Of a stretch of 33,480 bases of DNA, positions 21,670-30,376 are shown piece by piece. The notes below the pieces were generated by a model that did not search any database, was not told where the DNA came from, and worked only from the letters and a program-made list of their open reading frames with translations. The position numbers were made by a program, and so were the translations under genes. Origin of the DNA: Spirochaetales bacterium (lineage in GTDB: Bacteria > Spirochaetota > Spirochaetia > DSM-2461); NCBI GenBank assembly GCA_016936115.1, contig JAFGPQ010000008.1, positions 1-33,480 on the forward strand, read 5' to 3'. Numbering within the stretch: position 1 is the first letter of the stretch; each line of letters begins with the position of its first letter.

Positions 21670-23025
21670 CTAGTTTTCTCTCATAGCCTTGTTAAGTTCG
21701 GCGTTCGCCTCGGCAGGGGTCTTCGTTAAGCCGAAGATCTCCTGACAGGTGTTTTTATGAGTTTCTCCCACGGCAGGGGGAAGGTACTGGTCGTACCAGA
21801 GCTGCACGTTGCTGGCGCTGGAGAAATCCGCCCAGATTTTCTGCATACAATGATCTTCGATGGTATCACCCATGCCCACGATGGAGGGAATCCGTCCCGT
21901 AGCCAACTGTTCGTTGTTATAGGTATCGTCATTGTAGAACTGGGTTGCCAGGATAAAGGCGGCATCCAGTTTTTCCTGGTCATCATGGATATTGAAAGAG
22001 AAACCGTTACCGATAGAGGTTCCCACGACAATATTCTGCGGCTTATCGCTGCTGGCCAGGTTGGGGAACCGGAAGTAATCCATATTGTTTACGTACCACT
22101 CCTCATTATCGTTTCTCATGGAACCGGCCTGCCAGGAACCGTGTAGCATCATGGCCGCTTCTTCCGTGTAGATAAGCTGTCTGTCCTGACCGTCATCCGT
22201 ATTCAGGCTGTTCACGCCGTCGGGGAAATAGCCCGCTCTGACCCACTCCTGGATTTTTTCGCCCGCATACTGGAAGGCGGGGGATTCGAAGGATCCGGAA
22301 CCGTCCACGGCTGCGTTGAACTCATCCACACCGCCGAAACGGGTGGCCAGATACATAAAATACATGGATCCGGTCCATTTGTTCTGGTTGGCCAGGGAGA
22401 AGGGAATGTACCCCGCATTCTTGAGGGTTTCGCAGGCGGCTTCCAGCTCGGCAATGGTTTGGGGAACGCCTATGCCCAGTTTGCTGAATATGGTCTTGTT
22501 ATAGAAAACGCCGCTTCCGCCGATTCCACCGAAGGGTACCGCGTAGATATCCCCTTTGTACGAACTCTGTGCGATGGCCGCTTCCAGAAAGGGAACGTCG
22601 CAATGCTCATTCATCAGGTCGGTGATCGGTACGGCGAAGCCGGAGTCGATATACTCGTTCATGGGACCGCCGCCCCAGTGGATGTACATGTCGGGACACT
22701 GACCGGAACTCATGGAAATAATCAGCTTTTGCTTGTACGTATCGTTCTGGATGTGGGTATTATCCACGGTTACATTCGGATAAGCCGCCATAAAGCGTTC
22801 CACCGCGCTCTCCTGGGTGGATTTAGTGGGATCCTCCGTGGCTATATCCCATAGGGTGATTGTCATCTTCTTTGAGCTGACTCCGAACCCGGCATTCTCG
22901 GTACTTGAGGCTTCCGCACTAATTGTCGACCCCTTGTCTCCGTCGCTTTTCTTCGAGCATCCCGCTGTGAACGCAAGAACGAGAAGGGCGGACAGCACAT
23001 AAACAAAAAACTTCCTTACTGCCAT
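21670..23025 (-). CDS. carbohydrate ABC transporter substrate-binding lipoprotein (family 1 extracellular solute-binding protein)
   Basis: Lipobox MAVRKFFVYVLSALLVLAFTAGCSKKSDG; ITLWDIATEDPTKSTQESAVERFMAAYPNVTV; SD AAGGAGAA. Confidence 0.94.
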   Translation of the reverse strand: MAVRKFFVYVLSALLVLAFTAGCSKKSDGDKGSTISAEASSTENAGFGVSSKKMTITLWDIATEDPTKSTQESAVERFMAAYPNVTVDNTHIQNDTYKQKLIISMSSGQCPDMYIHWGGGPMNEYIDSGFAVPITDLMNEHCDVPFLEAAIAQSSYKGDIYAVPFGGIGGSGVFYNKTIFSKLGIGVPQTIAELEAACETLKNAGYIPFSLANQNKWTGSMYFMYLATRFGGVDEFNAAVDGSGSFESPAFQYAGEKIQEWVRAGYFPDGVNSLNTDDGQDRQLIYTEEAAMMLHGSWQAGSMRNDNEEWYVNNMDYFRFPNLASSDKPQNIVVGTSIGNGFSFNIHDDQEKLDAAFILATQFYNDDTYNNEQLATGRIPSIVGMGDTIEDHCMQKIWADFSSASNVQLWYDQYLPPAVGETHKNTCQEIFGLTKTPAEANAELNKAMREN

Positions 23026-23275
23026 TTTTGAATTCTCCTTATCATAGGTTTTGTCTTGTATGACAAGCTACATGATAACAGCTCGTGGGTGATTGAAAAT
23101 ATAATAATTTGTTCATTATATATAAAATTCTTTCTTCCCCGATTCTGAATAGGCCGATTCATTAAAAACAAGAGGCCTAAATATAGTATCACTATAGTAC
23201 TACATTTTCACTTTTTTACGAGTTCCCGGGGAATTCTATTGACTCTTTCTTTTCTTAGGAGTACCGTATTTTTAC

Positions 23276-23362
23276 ATGAAAAACAAATCCGTAATCAACA
23301 GCATTATTATTTCTCTCATTCTTCTACTAGGGAGAGATCTTTGCAGAGAACGGTCGCTGTAA
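23276..23362 (+). CDS. leader peptide of the leu/ile operon attenuator (28 aa)
   Basis: ATG AAA AAC AAA TCC GTA ATC AAC AGC ATT ATT ATT TCT CTC ATT CTT CTA CTA GGG AGA GAT CTT TGC AGA GAA CGG TCG CTG TAA = MKNKSVINSIIISLILLLGRDLCRERSL. AGGAG at 23257-23261. 12/28 residues are Ile/Leu/Val; immediately upstream of an antiterminator/terminator. Missing from the supplied ORF track. Confidence 0.8.
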   Translation: MKNKSVINSIIISLILLLGRDLCRERSL

Positions 23363-23392
23363 CAGCGCTACACAGGTAAAGCACCCGTTCTC
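23346..23392 (+). promoter_or_regulatory. candidate antiterminator pairing of the leu/ile attenuator
   Basis: GAGAACGG (23346-23353) is perfectly complementary to CCGTTCTC (23385-23392), the 5' arm of the terminator. Confidence 0.72.
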
Positions 23393-23415
23393 GTTAGGAG
23401 GACGGGTTTTTTTTT
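23383..23415 (+). terminator. intrinsic terminator (attenuator) upstream of leuA
   Basis: ACCCGTTCTC-GTTAG-GAGGACGGGT then a T run 23407-23415: 10-bp stem with one G.U. Confidence 0.9.
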
Positions 23416-23542: not shown

Positions 23543-25087
23543 ATGGATAAGGTATTGATTTTTGACACGACCCTTAGAGACGGGGAGCAGGCGCTGTCCT
23601 CCAGTCTTTCCGTAAAAGAGAAGATTGTCATTGCCCATGCCCTGGCCAAGCTCAATGTGGATATCATTGAAGCGGGCTTTCCTGTCAGTTCCCCCGGAGA
23701 CCTGGAGAGCGTGAGACAGATTGCCAATTCGGTTAAGGGCCCCATCGTGGCGGGACTCGCCCGGGCTGTGAGAAAAGATATCGACGCCTGTGCGAAAGCC
23801 CTGAAGGAGTGTCCCCGCCCCCGGATTCACACCTTCATCGCCACGTCGAACATGCACGTGGAGAGCAAGCTCAAGAAGGGTTACGATGAAGTAATCCAGA
23901 TGGGTGTGGATGCGGTGAGCTACGCGCGGAACTTCTGCGACGATGTGGAGTTCTCCTGCGAGGACGCGGGACGGACAGACCGGGACATGCTCTGCCGCAT
24001 CGTGGAAGCCACGATCAATGCGGGTGCGAAAACCATCAACATTCCCGATACGGTGGGCTACACCGTGGGCTACGAGTTCGGCGACATTATCAAGGACATC
24101 TTCAACCGGGTTCCCAATATAGATAAAGCGACCATTTCGGTGCACTGCCATAACGACCTGGGCCAGGCGGCGGCCAACTCCCTCATGGCCGTCCTGAACG
24201 GGGCCCGTCAGATAGAGTGTACCGTGAACGGCCTGGGCGAACGGGCGGGAAACTGCTCCATGGAAGAGGTTGTCATGGCCATGAGAACACGAAAGGACAT
24301 TTTCGGCATAGACACGGGCATCGTCTCCGAGGAGATCTCCCATACCAGCCGCCTTGTCAGCAAAATCTGCAATGTTCCGGTCCAGCCCAACAAAGCGATC
24401 GTGGGCGCCACCGCTTTCGCCCACTCCTCCGGCATCCATCAGGATGGGGTGCTCAAGAACCGGAGCAACTACGAGATCATGACCCCCGAGTCGGTGGGCC
24501 TCTCGGCGAATCAGTTCCACCTGACCAGCCGCTCGGGACGGCATATCATCAAGCACCGTCTGAGCCTGCTCGGCTACGAGGAGGATTCCTACGATCTGGA
24601 CCAGTTCTACGATAAGTTCCTGGCCCTGGCCGACAAGAAGGGAACCGTTTACGATGACGACCTGGAAGCGATGATGGAGATCGACGGGGACGAGGCGGAC
24701 CGGTACAAGATGGTCTACCTGAACACCACCTCAGGGACCGGCTCCATCCCCTCGGCCACGGTGAAGATTCACGACAACGCCGCTTCCGATGCGGAACCGA
24801 TCCAGGAAGCGGCCACCGGAGACGGTCCGGTGGATGCGGCCTGTAAGGCGATCGACCGGGCGGTTGGCTTCTCCATCAAGATGGTGGACTACGCCCTCAC
24901 CGGACTGACCGGCGGCAAGAACGCCCTGGGCGAGGTGAAGATCATCGCCGAGCACAAGGAACGCCGCTACCACGGGCAGGGCTCCAGCACGGACATAGTG
25001 GAAGCCTCCGCCCTGGCTTATATGAACGTAATCAACAAAGTCGCCCGCATGGAGGGCATAGAGAAAATGAAGGAGATGAAAGCATAA
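23543..25087 (+). CDS. leuA: 2-isopropylmalate synthase
   Basis: 514 aa; FDTTLRDGEQALSSSLSVKEKIVIAHALAKLNVDIIEAGFPVSSPGD, HCHNDLGQAAANSLMAVLNGARQIECTVNGLGERAGN; C-terminal LeuA regulatory domain. SD AAGGAG. Confidence 0.97.
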   Translation: MDKVLIFDTTLRDGEQALSSSLSVKEKIVIAHALAKLNVDIIEAGFPVSSPGDLESVRQIANSVKGPIVAGLARAVRKDIDACAKALKECPRPRIHTFIATSNMHVESKLKKGYDEVIQMGVDAVSYARNFCDDVEFSCEDAGRTDRDMLCRIVEATINAGAKTINIPDTVGYTVGYEFGDIIKDIFNRVPNIDKATISVHCHNDLGQAAANSLMAVLNGARQIECTVNGLGERAGNCSMEEVVMAMRTRKDIFGIDTGIVSEEISHTSRLVSKICNVPVQPNKAIVGATAFAHSSGIHQDGVLKNRSNYEIMTPESVGLSANQFHLTSRSGRHIIKHRLSLLGYEEDSYDLDQFYDKFLALADKKGTVYDDDLEAMMEIDGDEADRYKMVYLNTTSGTGSIPSATVKIHDNAASDAEPIQEAATGDGPVDAACKAIDRAVGFSIKMVDYALTGLTGGKNALGEVKIIAEHKERRYHGQGSSTDIVEASALAYMNVINKVARMEGIEKMKEMKA

Positions 25088-26370
25088 TGGGCAAAACCTT
25101 AGTAGAGAAGATTTTTGAATCCCATCTGGTGGACAACCCCTGCGAGGGCGTTCACGTTCTGAATCTGGATCGGGTATTCTGTCATGAGATCACCACCCCC
25201 CCCGCCATTCTGGACCTTAAGAGACGGGACAAGTACCGGGTATTCGATCCGGACAAGATCAAGGCGGTTATCGACCATGTCACCCCCGCCAAGGACAGCC
25301 TCACCGCCACCCAGGGGAAGATCCTCCGGGACTGGGCGAAGGATATGGGCATCAAGGATTACTTTGACATCGGACGGAACGGGGTCTGCCACGCCATATT
25401 CCCCGAGAAGGGTTTTGTCCGCCCCGGCTTTACGGTCATCATGGGAGACTCCCACACCTGTACCCACGGCGCTTTCGGCGCTTTTGCCGCCGGGGTGGGC
25501 ACCACGGATCTGGAAGTGGGTATCCTCAAGGGAATCTGCGCTTTCAAATCTCCGGAAACAACGAAAATAACCATTACCGGAACCCCCGCCAAGGGAGTTT
25601 ACGCCAAGGACGTGATCCTCTCCGTCATCAAGATGATGACCACCAACGGGGTGACCAACCGGGTCGCCGAGTTCCGGGGCGATTTCGTGGACAACCTGGG
25701 CATGGACGGACGTCTCACCCTGTGTAACATGGCCGTGGAAATGGGCGCCACCAGCGGCGTCTGCCTCCCCGACATGACCACCGTGGAGTACCTCTGGCCC
25801 TTTATCGCCGGGGACTACGCCTCCAAGGAAGAGGCCCTGGCCGACTTCGCCAAATGGCGCAGCGACGACGATGCGGTCTATGCGGACGAGCGGACCATCG
25901 ACATAAGCAAGCTCGTTCCCCAGGTGACCGACGAATACCGCCCCGATGTGGTCAAGGACATCACCGAAATGGAAGGCAGGGAACTGCATCAGATCTACCT
26001 GGGCTCCTGTACCAACGGCCGCCTGGAAGACCTGGCCATCGCCGCGGGCATCCTCAAGGGAAAGAAAGTGGCCGACAACGTGCGCATGATCGTCTCCCCC
26101 GCCACTCCCAAGATCTACTCCGACGCCCTGGAAGCGGGATACGTGAAAATCTTCATGGACGCCGGCGCCTGTCTGACCAACCCCACCTGCGGCGCCTGTC
26201 TGGGTATGTCCAACGGGGTTCTGGCCGAAGGGGAAGCTGCCGCAGCCACCACGAACAGAAACTTCAACGGCCGCATGGGCAAGGGGGGCATGGTTCACCT
26301 GTGCAGCCCCGCCACCGCCGCCGCCTCGGCCATCGAGGGCAAACTGACCGATCCCAGGAGGTACATGTAA
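25087..26370 (+). CDS. leuC: 3-isopropylmalate dehydratase large subunit
   Basis: 427 aa; GDSHTCTHGAFGAFAAGVGTTDLE, GSCTNGRLEDLAIAAGILKGKKV, CLTNPTCGACLGMSNGVLAEGE (Fe-S ligands). Confidence 0.96.
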   Translation: MGKTLVEKIFESHLVDNPCEGVHVLNLDRVFCHEITTPPAILDLKRRDKYRVFDPDKIKAVIDHVTPAKDSLTATQGKILRDWAKDMGIKDYFDIGRNGVCHAIFPEKGFVRPGFTVIMGDSHTCTHGAFGAFAAGVGTTDLEVGILKGICAFKSPETTKITITGTPAKGVYAKDVILSVIKMMTTNGVTNRVAEFRGDFVDNLGMDGRLTLCNMAVEMGATSGVCLPDMTTVEYLWPFIAGDYASKEEALADFAKWRSDDDAVYADERTIDISKLVPQVTDEYRPDVVKDITEMEGRELHQIYLGSCTNGRLEDLAIAAGILKGKKVADNVRMIVSPATPKIYSDALEAGYVKIFMDAGACLTNPTCGACLGMSNGVLAEGEAAAATTNRNFNGRMGKGGMVHLCSPATAAASAIEGKLTDPRRYM

Positions 26371-26906
26371 TGAAAAATTTCGGAGGACAGATCCTCTTTC
26401 TGGACAGAAGCGACATCAATACGGATGAAATCATACCCGCCAAGTACCTGACCGAAGTAGAAAGAGTCGCCATGGGCCCCCACCTTCTGGAGGACCTGAA
26501 GATGGAAGGATTTACCCACATGAGCCAGCCCATGAAGGACTCCACGGTCATTTTGTCCCGGGACAACTTCGGCTGCGGTTCCAGCCGGGAACACGCCCCC
26601 TGGGCCCTGGAAGAGAACGGCTACACCGTGGTCATCGCCCCCAACTTCGCCCGGATTTTCCGGGGGAATATGTATAATAACGGCTGCATGGCCATCGAGC
26701 TGAAGGAAGAGGAGATCGATGAGATTTTCGCTCTCTCCTCCGGTCCCGAGACCACCGGTGTCTCCGCCAGCGTGGATGTGGATGCCCAGACAGTGAGCGT
26801 GAAGAGCTCCAAGGGAGAGAAAACCTACTCCTTTACCCTCTCCAGCTATGACAAGGATCTGGTCATGGCCGGGGGCTGGCTGGAATATGCGGACGCCAAG
26901 TACTGA
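26370..26906 (+). CDS. leuD: 3-isopropylmalate dehydratase small subunit
   Basis: 178 aa from ATG 26370: MKNFGGQILFLDRSDINTDEIIPAKYL...NFGCGSSREHAPWAL...IFRGNMYNNG. The longer ORF from 25854 is read-through of an alternative frame over leuC. Confidence 0.96.
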   Translation: MKNFGGQILFLDRSDINTDEIIPAKYLTEVERVAMGPHLLEDLKMEGFTHMSQPMKDSTVILSRDNFGCGSSREHAPWALEENGYTVVIAPNFARIFRGNMYNNGCMAIELKEEEIDEIFALSSGPETTGVSASVDVDAQTVSVKSSKGEKTYSFTLSSYDKDLVMAGGWLEYADAKY

Positions 26907-27660
26907 TTGGAACCCCTCTCTTTATCTGAAATACGGTAGGGAGAGGCTCCAGCCCACCGTCGATCTGGCCTCACGGATTGACCTGGAAGCGCCGAATCGG
27001 ATTATCGATATCGGCTGCGGTCCCGGAAACAGCACCTCTGTTCTGCGGGGACGCTGGCCGGAAGCGGAAATCACCGGACTGGACAACTCCCCCGCCATGA
27101 TCGAGCGCGCCCGGCAGAGCGGCATTGAAGCGGACTGGATCATTGCCGACGCCTCGACTGCCCAGTTTCCCGGGGAATGGGATCTGATCTTCTCCAACGC
27201 GGCCTACCAGTGGATGGCGGGCCAGTCGGAACTGTTCAGCAAACTCAGGTCCAATCTGATGCCGAACGGTATCATGGCGGCTCAGATTCCCCTCTTTCGG
27301 GAGATGCCCATGAGCGGTGTCATCAGCGAAGAAGCGATTCAGCCGCGCTGGAATTTCGGCGCCGGTAACGGCCATCTTATGATTCACAGCCGGGAGGAGT
27401 ACTATGATATCCTCTCCGGGCTTTTCGAGCATGTGGATCTGTGGGTGACCGATTACATCCATGTGATGCCATCCCATGAAGCGATTCTGGAAATGATGAG
27501 AAGCACCGCCCTGATGCCCTTTCTGGCTCAGCTTGAGTTTGAAGAGGACAGAAGGGCCTACGAAAAGGAGATCCTGAAGAGAATAGGGCGGGAATATCCC
27601 GCCCGGGGGAACGGCAAGGTCCTCTTTCCCTTCAGACGATTATTTTTTATAGCGAAATAA
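26887..27660 (+). CDS. tam: trans-aconitate 2-methyltransferase-like SAM methyltransferase
   Basis: MRTPSTDWNPSLYLKYGRERLQPTVDLASRI...IDIGCGPGNSTSVLRGRWPEAEITGLDNSPAMIERA...YYDILSG...VMPSHEAI...YPARGNGKVLFPFRRLFFIAK closely matches recalled E. coli Tam landmarks. Starts 20 nt inside leuD. Confidence 0.88.
   Translation: MRTPSTDWNPSLYLKYGRERLQPTVDLASRIDLEAPNRIIDIGCGPGNSTSVLRGRWPEAEITGLDNSPAMIERARQSGIEADWIIADASTAQFPGEWDLIFSNAAYQWMAGQSELFSKLRSNLMPNGIMAAQIPLFREMPMSGVISEEAIQPRWNFGAGNGHLMIHSREEYYDILSGLFEHVDLWVTDYIHVMPSHEAILEMMRSTALMPFLAQLEFEEDRRAYEKEILKRIGREYPARGNGKVLFPFRRLFFIAK

Positions 27661-30376
<2,716 letters not shown>

Follow-up and report, generated by a model that had tools for sequence, protein, structure and literature searches.

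Leader-peptide attenuation is a classical mechanism, and leaders responding to more than one amino acid exist, as in ilvL. In the leuL leader of E. coli and Salmonella, the control codons of a short peptide stand before leuA and an antiterminator competes with an intrinsic terminator, and in the E. coli ilvGMEDA attenuator several branched-chain amino acids are sensed by a single leader. Outside Proteobacteria, short-ORF control of leuA and ilv genes has been described for actinobacterial leader-peptide attenuators (PMC1262725, PMC10272879), which belong to another phylum and have another RNA architecture than the leader considered here. In Sinorhizobium meliloti, the trpL attenuator RNA has the ATG of its leader ORF at the very 5' end and is thus leaderless (PMC7298713), but it concerns Trp in Alphaproteobacteria, whereas the leaderless layout described below is shared within one spirochaete class by leaders for Ile/Leu, ilv, his and trp. 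For the spirochaete Leptospira, leaderless mRNAs have also been reported (PMC5243855), and a prediction of such mRNAs exists for Spirochaetes (PMC3160421). In a literature search that covered mainly openly accessible papers, leader-peptide attenuation was not found described for any spirochaete.

The window, that is, the whole analysed stretch of 33,480 nucleotides, carries a leuA-leuC-leuD-tam-like-leuB-cimA operon, which is very probably under the control of a transcription attenuator that depends on the ribosome and has a leaderless leader peptide. The proposal of leader-peptide attenuation of a combined leucine and isoleucine operon is thereby upheld by the conserved parts, the gene models and the masked folding. 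Its equation with the E. coli leu leader does not hold, since leuL has a Leu run and a -35 box that lies 57 nt upstream of its ATG, whereas the window leader has a mixed Ile and Leu run and a distance of 31 nt; the window leader also differs from the E. coli and Salmonella leuL in its leaderless layout, in the lack of a visible protector hairpin and in an operon that includes cimA. The ilvL leader serves a different operon, with its -35 box 55 nt before the ATG. Attenuation itself is known; what is new is the leaderless layout and the regulon joining leucine and citramalate-dependent isoleucine synthesis. The parts of the leader are as follows.

23239-23244, + strand: predicted promoter -35 box TTGACT, a 5/6 match, ending 31 nt before the leader ATG and aligned in both congeners
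23262-23267, + strand: -10-like box TACCGT, a weak 3/6 match, 17 nt after the -35 box; putative transcription start at about 23274-23276, at the ATG
23276-23362, + strand: leader peptide ORF of 28 codons, MKNKSVINSIIISLILLLGRDLCRERSL, with ATG at 23276 and TAA at 23360-23362, kept in congeners L002 and L003
23303-23329, + strand: control codons Ile Ile Ile Ser Leu Ile Leu Leu Leu, read directly
23346-23353, + strand: antiterminator 5' strand GAGAACGG, within the last codons of the leader ORF, complementary to the terminator 5' arm over 8 bp without a mismatch
23383-23415, + strand: intrinsic terminator ACCCGTTCTC-GTTAG-GAGGACGGGT with a T run, 10-bp stem at 23383-23407 and T's to 23415
23385-23392, + strand: shared arm CCGTTCTC, part of the terminator 5' arm, pairing with GAGAACGG

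The leader ORF was found as predicted, and its codons 10-18 (ATT ATT ATT TCT CTC ATT CTT CTA CTA) form a run for the amino acids that the operon produces. The terminator lies between this ORF and the first structural gene, 20 nt after the ORF end. Its claimed stem and T run were confirmed, with -17.5 kcal/mol (z = -5.4) for the isolated hairpin, and the folding of the whole leader beat 200 of 200 shuffles (z = -4.0). The complementarity of GAGAACGG to the terminator arm also proved correct, and an 8-bp match of this kind has p ~0.002 against shuffles of the same region. The antiterminator and the terminator exclude each other, and a ribosome that has reached the stop codon would cover the antiterminator strand, an arrangement that is strong in the genus and partial across the class. 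The genes that follow the leader are listed below.

23543-25087, + strand: leuA, 2-isopropylmalate synthase of gammaproteobacterial type (NF002084/TIGR00973 over cut-off; tree)
25087-26370, + strand: leuC-type large subunit, aconitase/IPMI family (NF001614 over cut-off)
26370-26906, + strand: leuD, small subunit (TIGR00171 over cut-off)
26848-27660, + strand: trans-aconitate 2-methyltransferase-like (tam-like) gene between leuD and leuB (best NF002463, E 2e-69, below cut-off)
27721-28800, + strand: leuB, 3-isopropylmalate dehydrogenase (TIGR00169 over cut-off)
28793-30376, + strand: cimA, citramalate synthase of the isoleucine branch (TIGR00977, 699 bits against a cut-off of 450)

Yeast Tmt1 methylates 3-isopropylmalate, and therefore a role of the tam-like gene in the leucine pathway is conceivable. 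In congener L204 a gap of matching size occupies the same place.

The conservation suggested as a check on the leuA upstream regions of relatives was found, as the ORF, the antiterminator and the terminator are all kept in both congeners. In these two other genomes of the genus, the Ile/Leu-rich leaders MKGKSVISSITISLIILLGRDMCGERSL and MNNTPNFAITIITLFILLLGKEICGERSL precede leuA, each followed by a terminator after 21 nt, and the antiterminator match amounts to 10 bp in L002 and 9 bp in L003. The alignment shows strong conservation between CTACTAG and GAGAACGGTCGCTGTAA, both included, whereas drift is seen in the spacer and the terminator loop. At the level of the class, leuA-type loci from Spirochaetia genomes were scanned for terminators on either strand, and a leader was called when 10-40 nt upstream of a strong terminator there was the end of an ATG ORF in which 6 or more of 8 codons were Ile/Leu/Val. 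Such an ORF precedes 40 of 67 unique strong terminators, and all 40 pairs are sense-oriented at the heads of branched-chain operons (leuA, ilvBN, ilvD and one at cimA), with a spacer of mostly 16-26 nt. The same scan recovered Proteobacterial leaders as a positive control. Outside the genus the antiterminator is weaker, being individually significant in 12 of 42 leaders with the congeners counted in, and swaps of antiterminators and terminator arms between leaders indicate weak class-wide specificity because a CCTTCC-like motif is common to many arms.

The codon content of the leaders follows the operon, with Ile and Leu codons where cimA is present and Leu codons only where it is absent. The densest 12-codon run contains 2-7 Ile codons in the 16 leaders of operons with leuA and cimA, as opposed to 0-1 Ile and 7-8 Leu codons where leuA occurs without cimA in at least 9 kb of available sequence (three leaders only); this difference in Ile codons gives p = 0.004 with kinship ignored and with a small Leu-only group. 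Val codons are commoner in leaders of operons that include ilv genes (p = 0.004, kinship ignored). In genome G077 the two types coexist: ilvBN-leuA-cimA follows an Ile/Val leader, and a second leuA follows a Leu-only one. Leu-only leaders with a shorter, separate leuA and no cimA are those of L097 and L100.

The position of the promoter bears on how the ribosome reaches the leader ORF. The -35 box, the 17-nt spacer and the -10-like box would place the transcription start on the leader ATG or at most a few bases away from it, and therefore the leader mRNA appears to be leaderless. Since the -10-like box of the window is weak, this reading leans on the relatives. Both congeners have -10-like boxes at the same spacing (TACCGT and TAGCTT), and the -35 box of L002 is a 4/6 match only. 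Across the class, 35 of 46 leaders have a TTGACA-like box (at least 5/6) whose end falls 27-34 nt upstream of the ATG, with observed distances of 29-33 nt, against a mean of 2 and a maximum of 5 of 46 leaders in the shuffled control. A -35 box at this distance occurs at 0/96 structural leuA starts and before 31 of 532 ORFs of at least 250 residues. The set of 46 includes L006 and L086, both without promoter spacing or a convincing run and both dropped from the later arm-swap and sequestration tests; L229, before cimA in a genome of the same family, was set aside as uncertain. The alternative is a conventional attenuator as in E. coli leu, with a start further upstream and a Shine-Dalgarno (SD) motif, AGGAG at 23257-23261, recruiting the ribosome, in line with the description of the ORF in the original prediction as SD-preceded. 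This motif is present in the window and in L002, and four ilv leaders of the class, all of family f9, do carry an SD. AGGAG, however, lies 14 nt from the ATG, between TTGACT and TACCGT and thus inside the 17-nt promoter spacer, and it is not kept in L003; moreover, 41 of the 46 class leaders are without an SD, whereas 88 of 97 structural leuA starts have one, so the SD-preceded description was not sustained and a conventional start is improbable. The four family f9 leaders (L082, L084, L087 and L102) precede ilvN-ilvC-leuA and are without TTGACA at the leaderless spacing. In a Zetaproteobacterial (Ghiorsea) leuA leader (L144, 2827-2904), TTGACA stands 31 nt before the ATG, and therefore the leaderless arrangement may occur elsewhere.

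The second point to be weighed is the state of the leader in the absence of a ribosome. In the classical scheme with 1:2, 2:3 and 3:4 pairings, a protector hairpin makes an untranslated transcript terminate, and such a hairpin had been proposed between TTCTCT and AGAGAA. The position of TTCTCT at 23311-23316 is correct and a strong local hairpin does form over the control codons, but this candidate pairing was rejected by folding, as 23309-23317 pairs with 23330-23338 instead and the hairpin excludes the antiterminator strand. A ribosome-free transcript is therefore predicted to antiterminate, and before the terminator 3' arm is made its antiterminator has a probability of 0.98. No protector hairpin sequestering the antiterminator strand, as in the enterobacterial leu leader, is thus evident in these predictions, an untranslated transcript should read through, and the classical scheme is doubtful here. 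Two further readings leave the leader ORF without a function. A tRNA- or ligand-sensing riboswitch, a T-box or another, could use the same terminator, and a terminator-bearing leader upstream of leuA would fit T-box anatomy as well. Nevertheless, the Rfam T-box model gave no match in the window at gathering or relaxed thresholds, Rfam as a whole gave no match in the window or in 18 relatives and nothing meaningful when thresholds were relaxed, the transcript before the terminator is only ~110 nt long, and the ORF is conserved as codons whose Ile/Leu/Val content tracks the operon, which makes a riboswitch very improbable. The Rfam Leu_leader model likewise gave no match at gathering score, nor did it match the window leader at E values of up to 5. 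Finally, the terminator might end another transcript, with the ORF as one of the hydrophobic frames that are common in AT-rich DNA; this can practically be dismissed, as the neighbouring gene upstream (21670-23025) lies on the minus strand and is divergent, the 40 ORF-terminator pairs of the class all stand in sense at branched-chain operon heads and all parts are kept in the congeners.

From the anatomy, the conservation, the match of codons and operon, the promoter position and the folding competition, all obtained computationally, we infer the following course of transcription start, translation, stalling, readthrough and response to Ile or Leu for the leaderless attenuator. Transcription would start at or close to the leader ATG, and therefore the ribosome would load directly on the 5' end of the RNA. 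With ample charged Ile- and Leu-tRNA, it would reach the stop codon and cover GAGAACGG, and the terminator at 23383-23415 would form. When Ile or Leu is short, it would stall in codons 10-18, GAGAACGG would pair with CCGTTCTC and transcription would enter leuA. Both amino acids may be sensed because LeuCD and LeuB serve leucine and, via CimA, isoleucine synthesis. This stall geometry was compared with equilibrium folding under a masked ribosome footprint that extended from 15 nt before the A-site codon to 14 nt after it. The predicted geometry stood in part: the terminator has a probability of 0.98 with the ribosome anywhere from Arg20 to the stop codon, and the antiterminator reaches 0.38-0.76 for stalls at codons 14-18, but it is not favoured for early Ile stalls (0.00 at codon 10 and 0.19 at codon 12). 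Across the class, the terminator 5' arm is more sequestered in the stalled state than with a ribosome at the stop codon in 36 of 41 leaders, a difference that is partly built in by masking near the arm.

A scan for His-rich and Trp-rich ORFs before terminators, made blind to the promoter, returned His leaders at hisG loci, MNIYTEKRIHHHHLLFS for example, and Trp leaders at trpE loci, for example MNNYAASQNLIFSSWWWLG. In most of them the box lies 29-33 nt upstream of the ATG, and an SD is missing from the convincing ones; therefore the layout looks general for the attenuators of the class. At five hisG loci (L285, L288, L289, L290 and L295), His-rich ORFs with up to HHHHH are followed by a terminator, and TTGACA precedes their ATG by 29-31 nt. 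A terminator likewise follows the Trp-rich ORFs (WWW, WW and WNW) at three trpE loci (L257, L258 and L270), where the distance from the -35 box to the ATG is 30-33 nt. Thus, it is likely that leu, ilv, his and trp attenuators on leaderless leader peptides occur throughout Spirochaetia, with the start fixed at the ATG, no protector, codons tuned to the pathway and joint sensing of Ile and Leu where leuA and citramalate synthase share LeuBCD.

The origin of leuA is a separate matter. In a quick tree, LeuA of the window and its genus is placed with LeuA proteins of gammaproteobacterial type and outside the main spirochaete clade, and on this grouping it was likely acquired by horizontal transfer. 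LeuA of genome G029 (L004) falls in the same group. A joint arrival of the attenuator with the gammaproteobacterial leuA is not favoured because the leader has the spirochaete layout, and the simplest reading would be an acquired leuA placed under a local attenuator. No leader or terminator was found at the genome's own ilvBN (L239).

If the proposed mechanism is true, classical attenuation, with another way of ribosome loading, extends to a major bacterial group, and the response of a two-amino-acid operon to either amino acid would be explained. The many natural examples with one promoter-to-start geometry would provide a test of leaderless initiation coupled to transcription. Moreover, the promoter-ATG spacing together with the terminator could allow leader ORFs that are at present unannotated to be called automatically.
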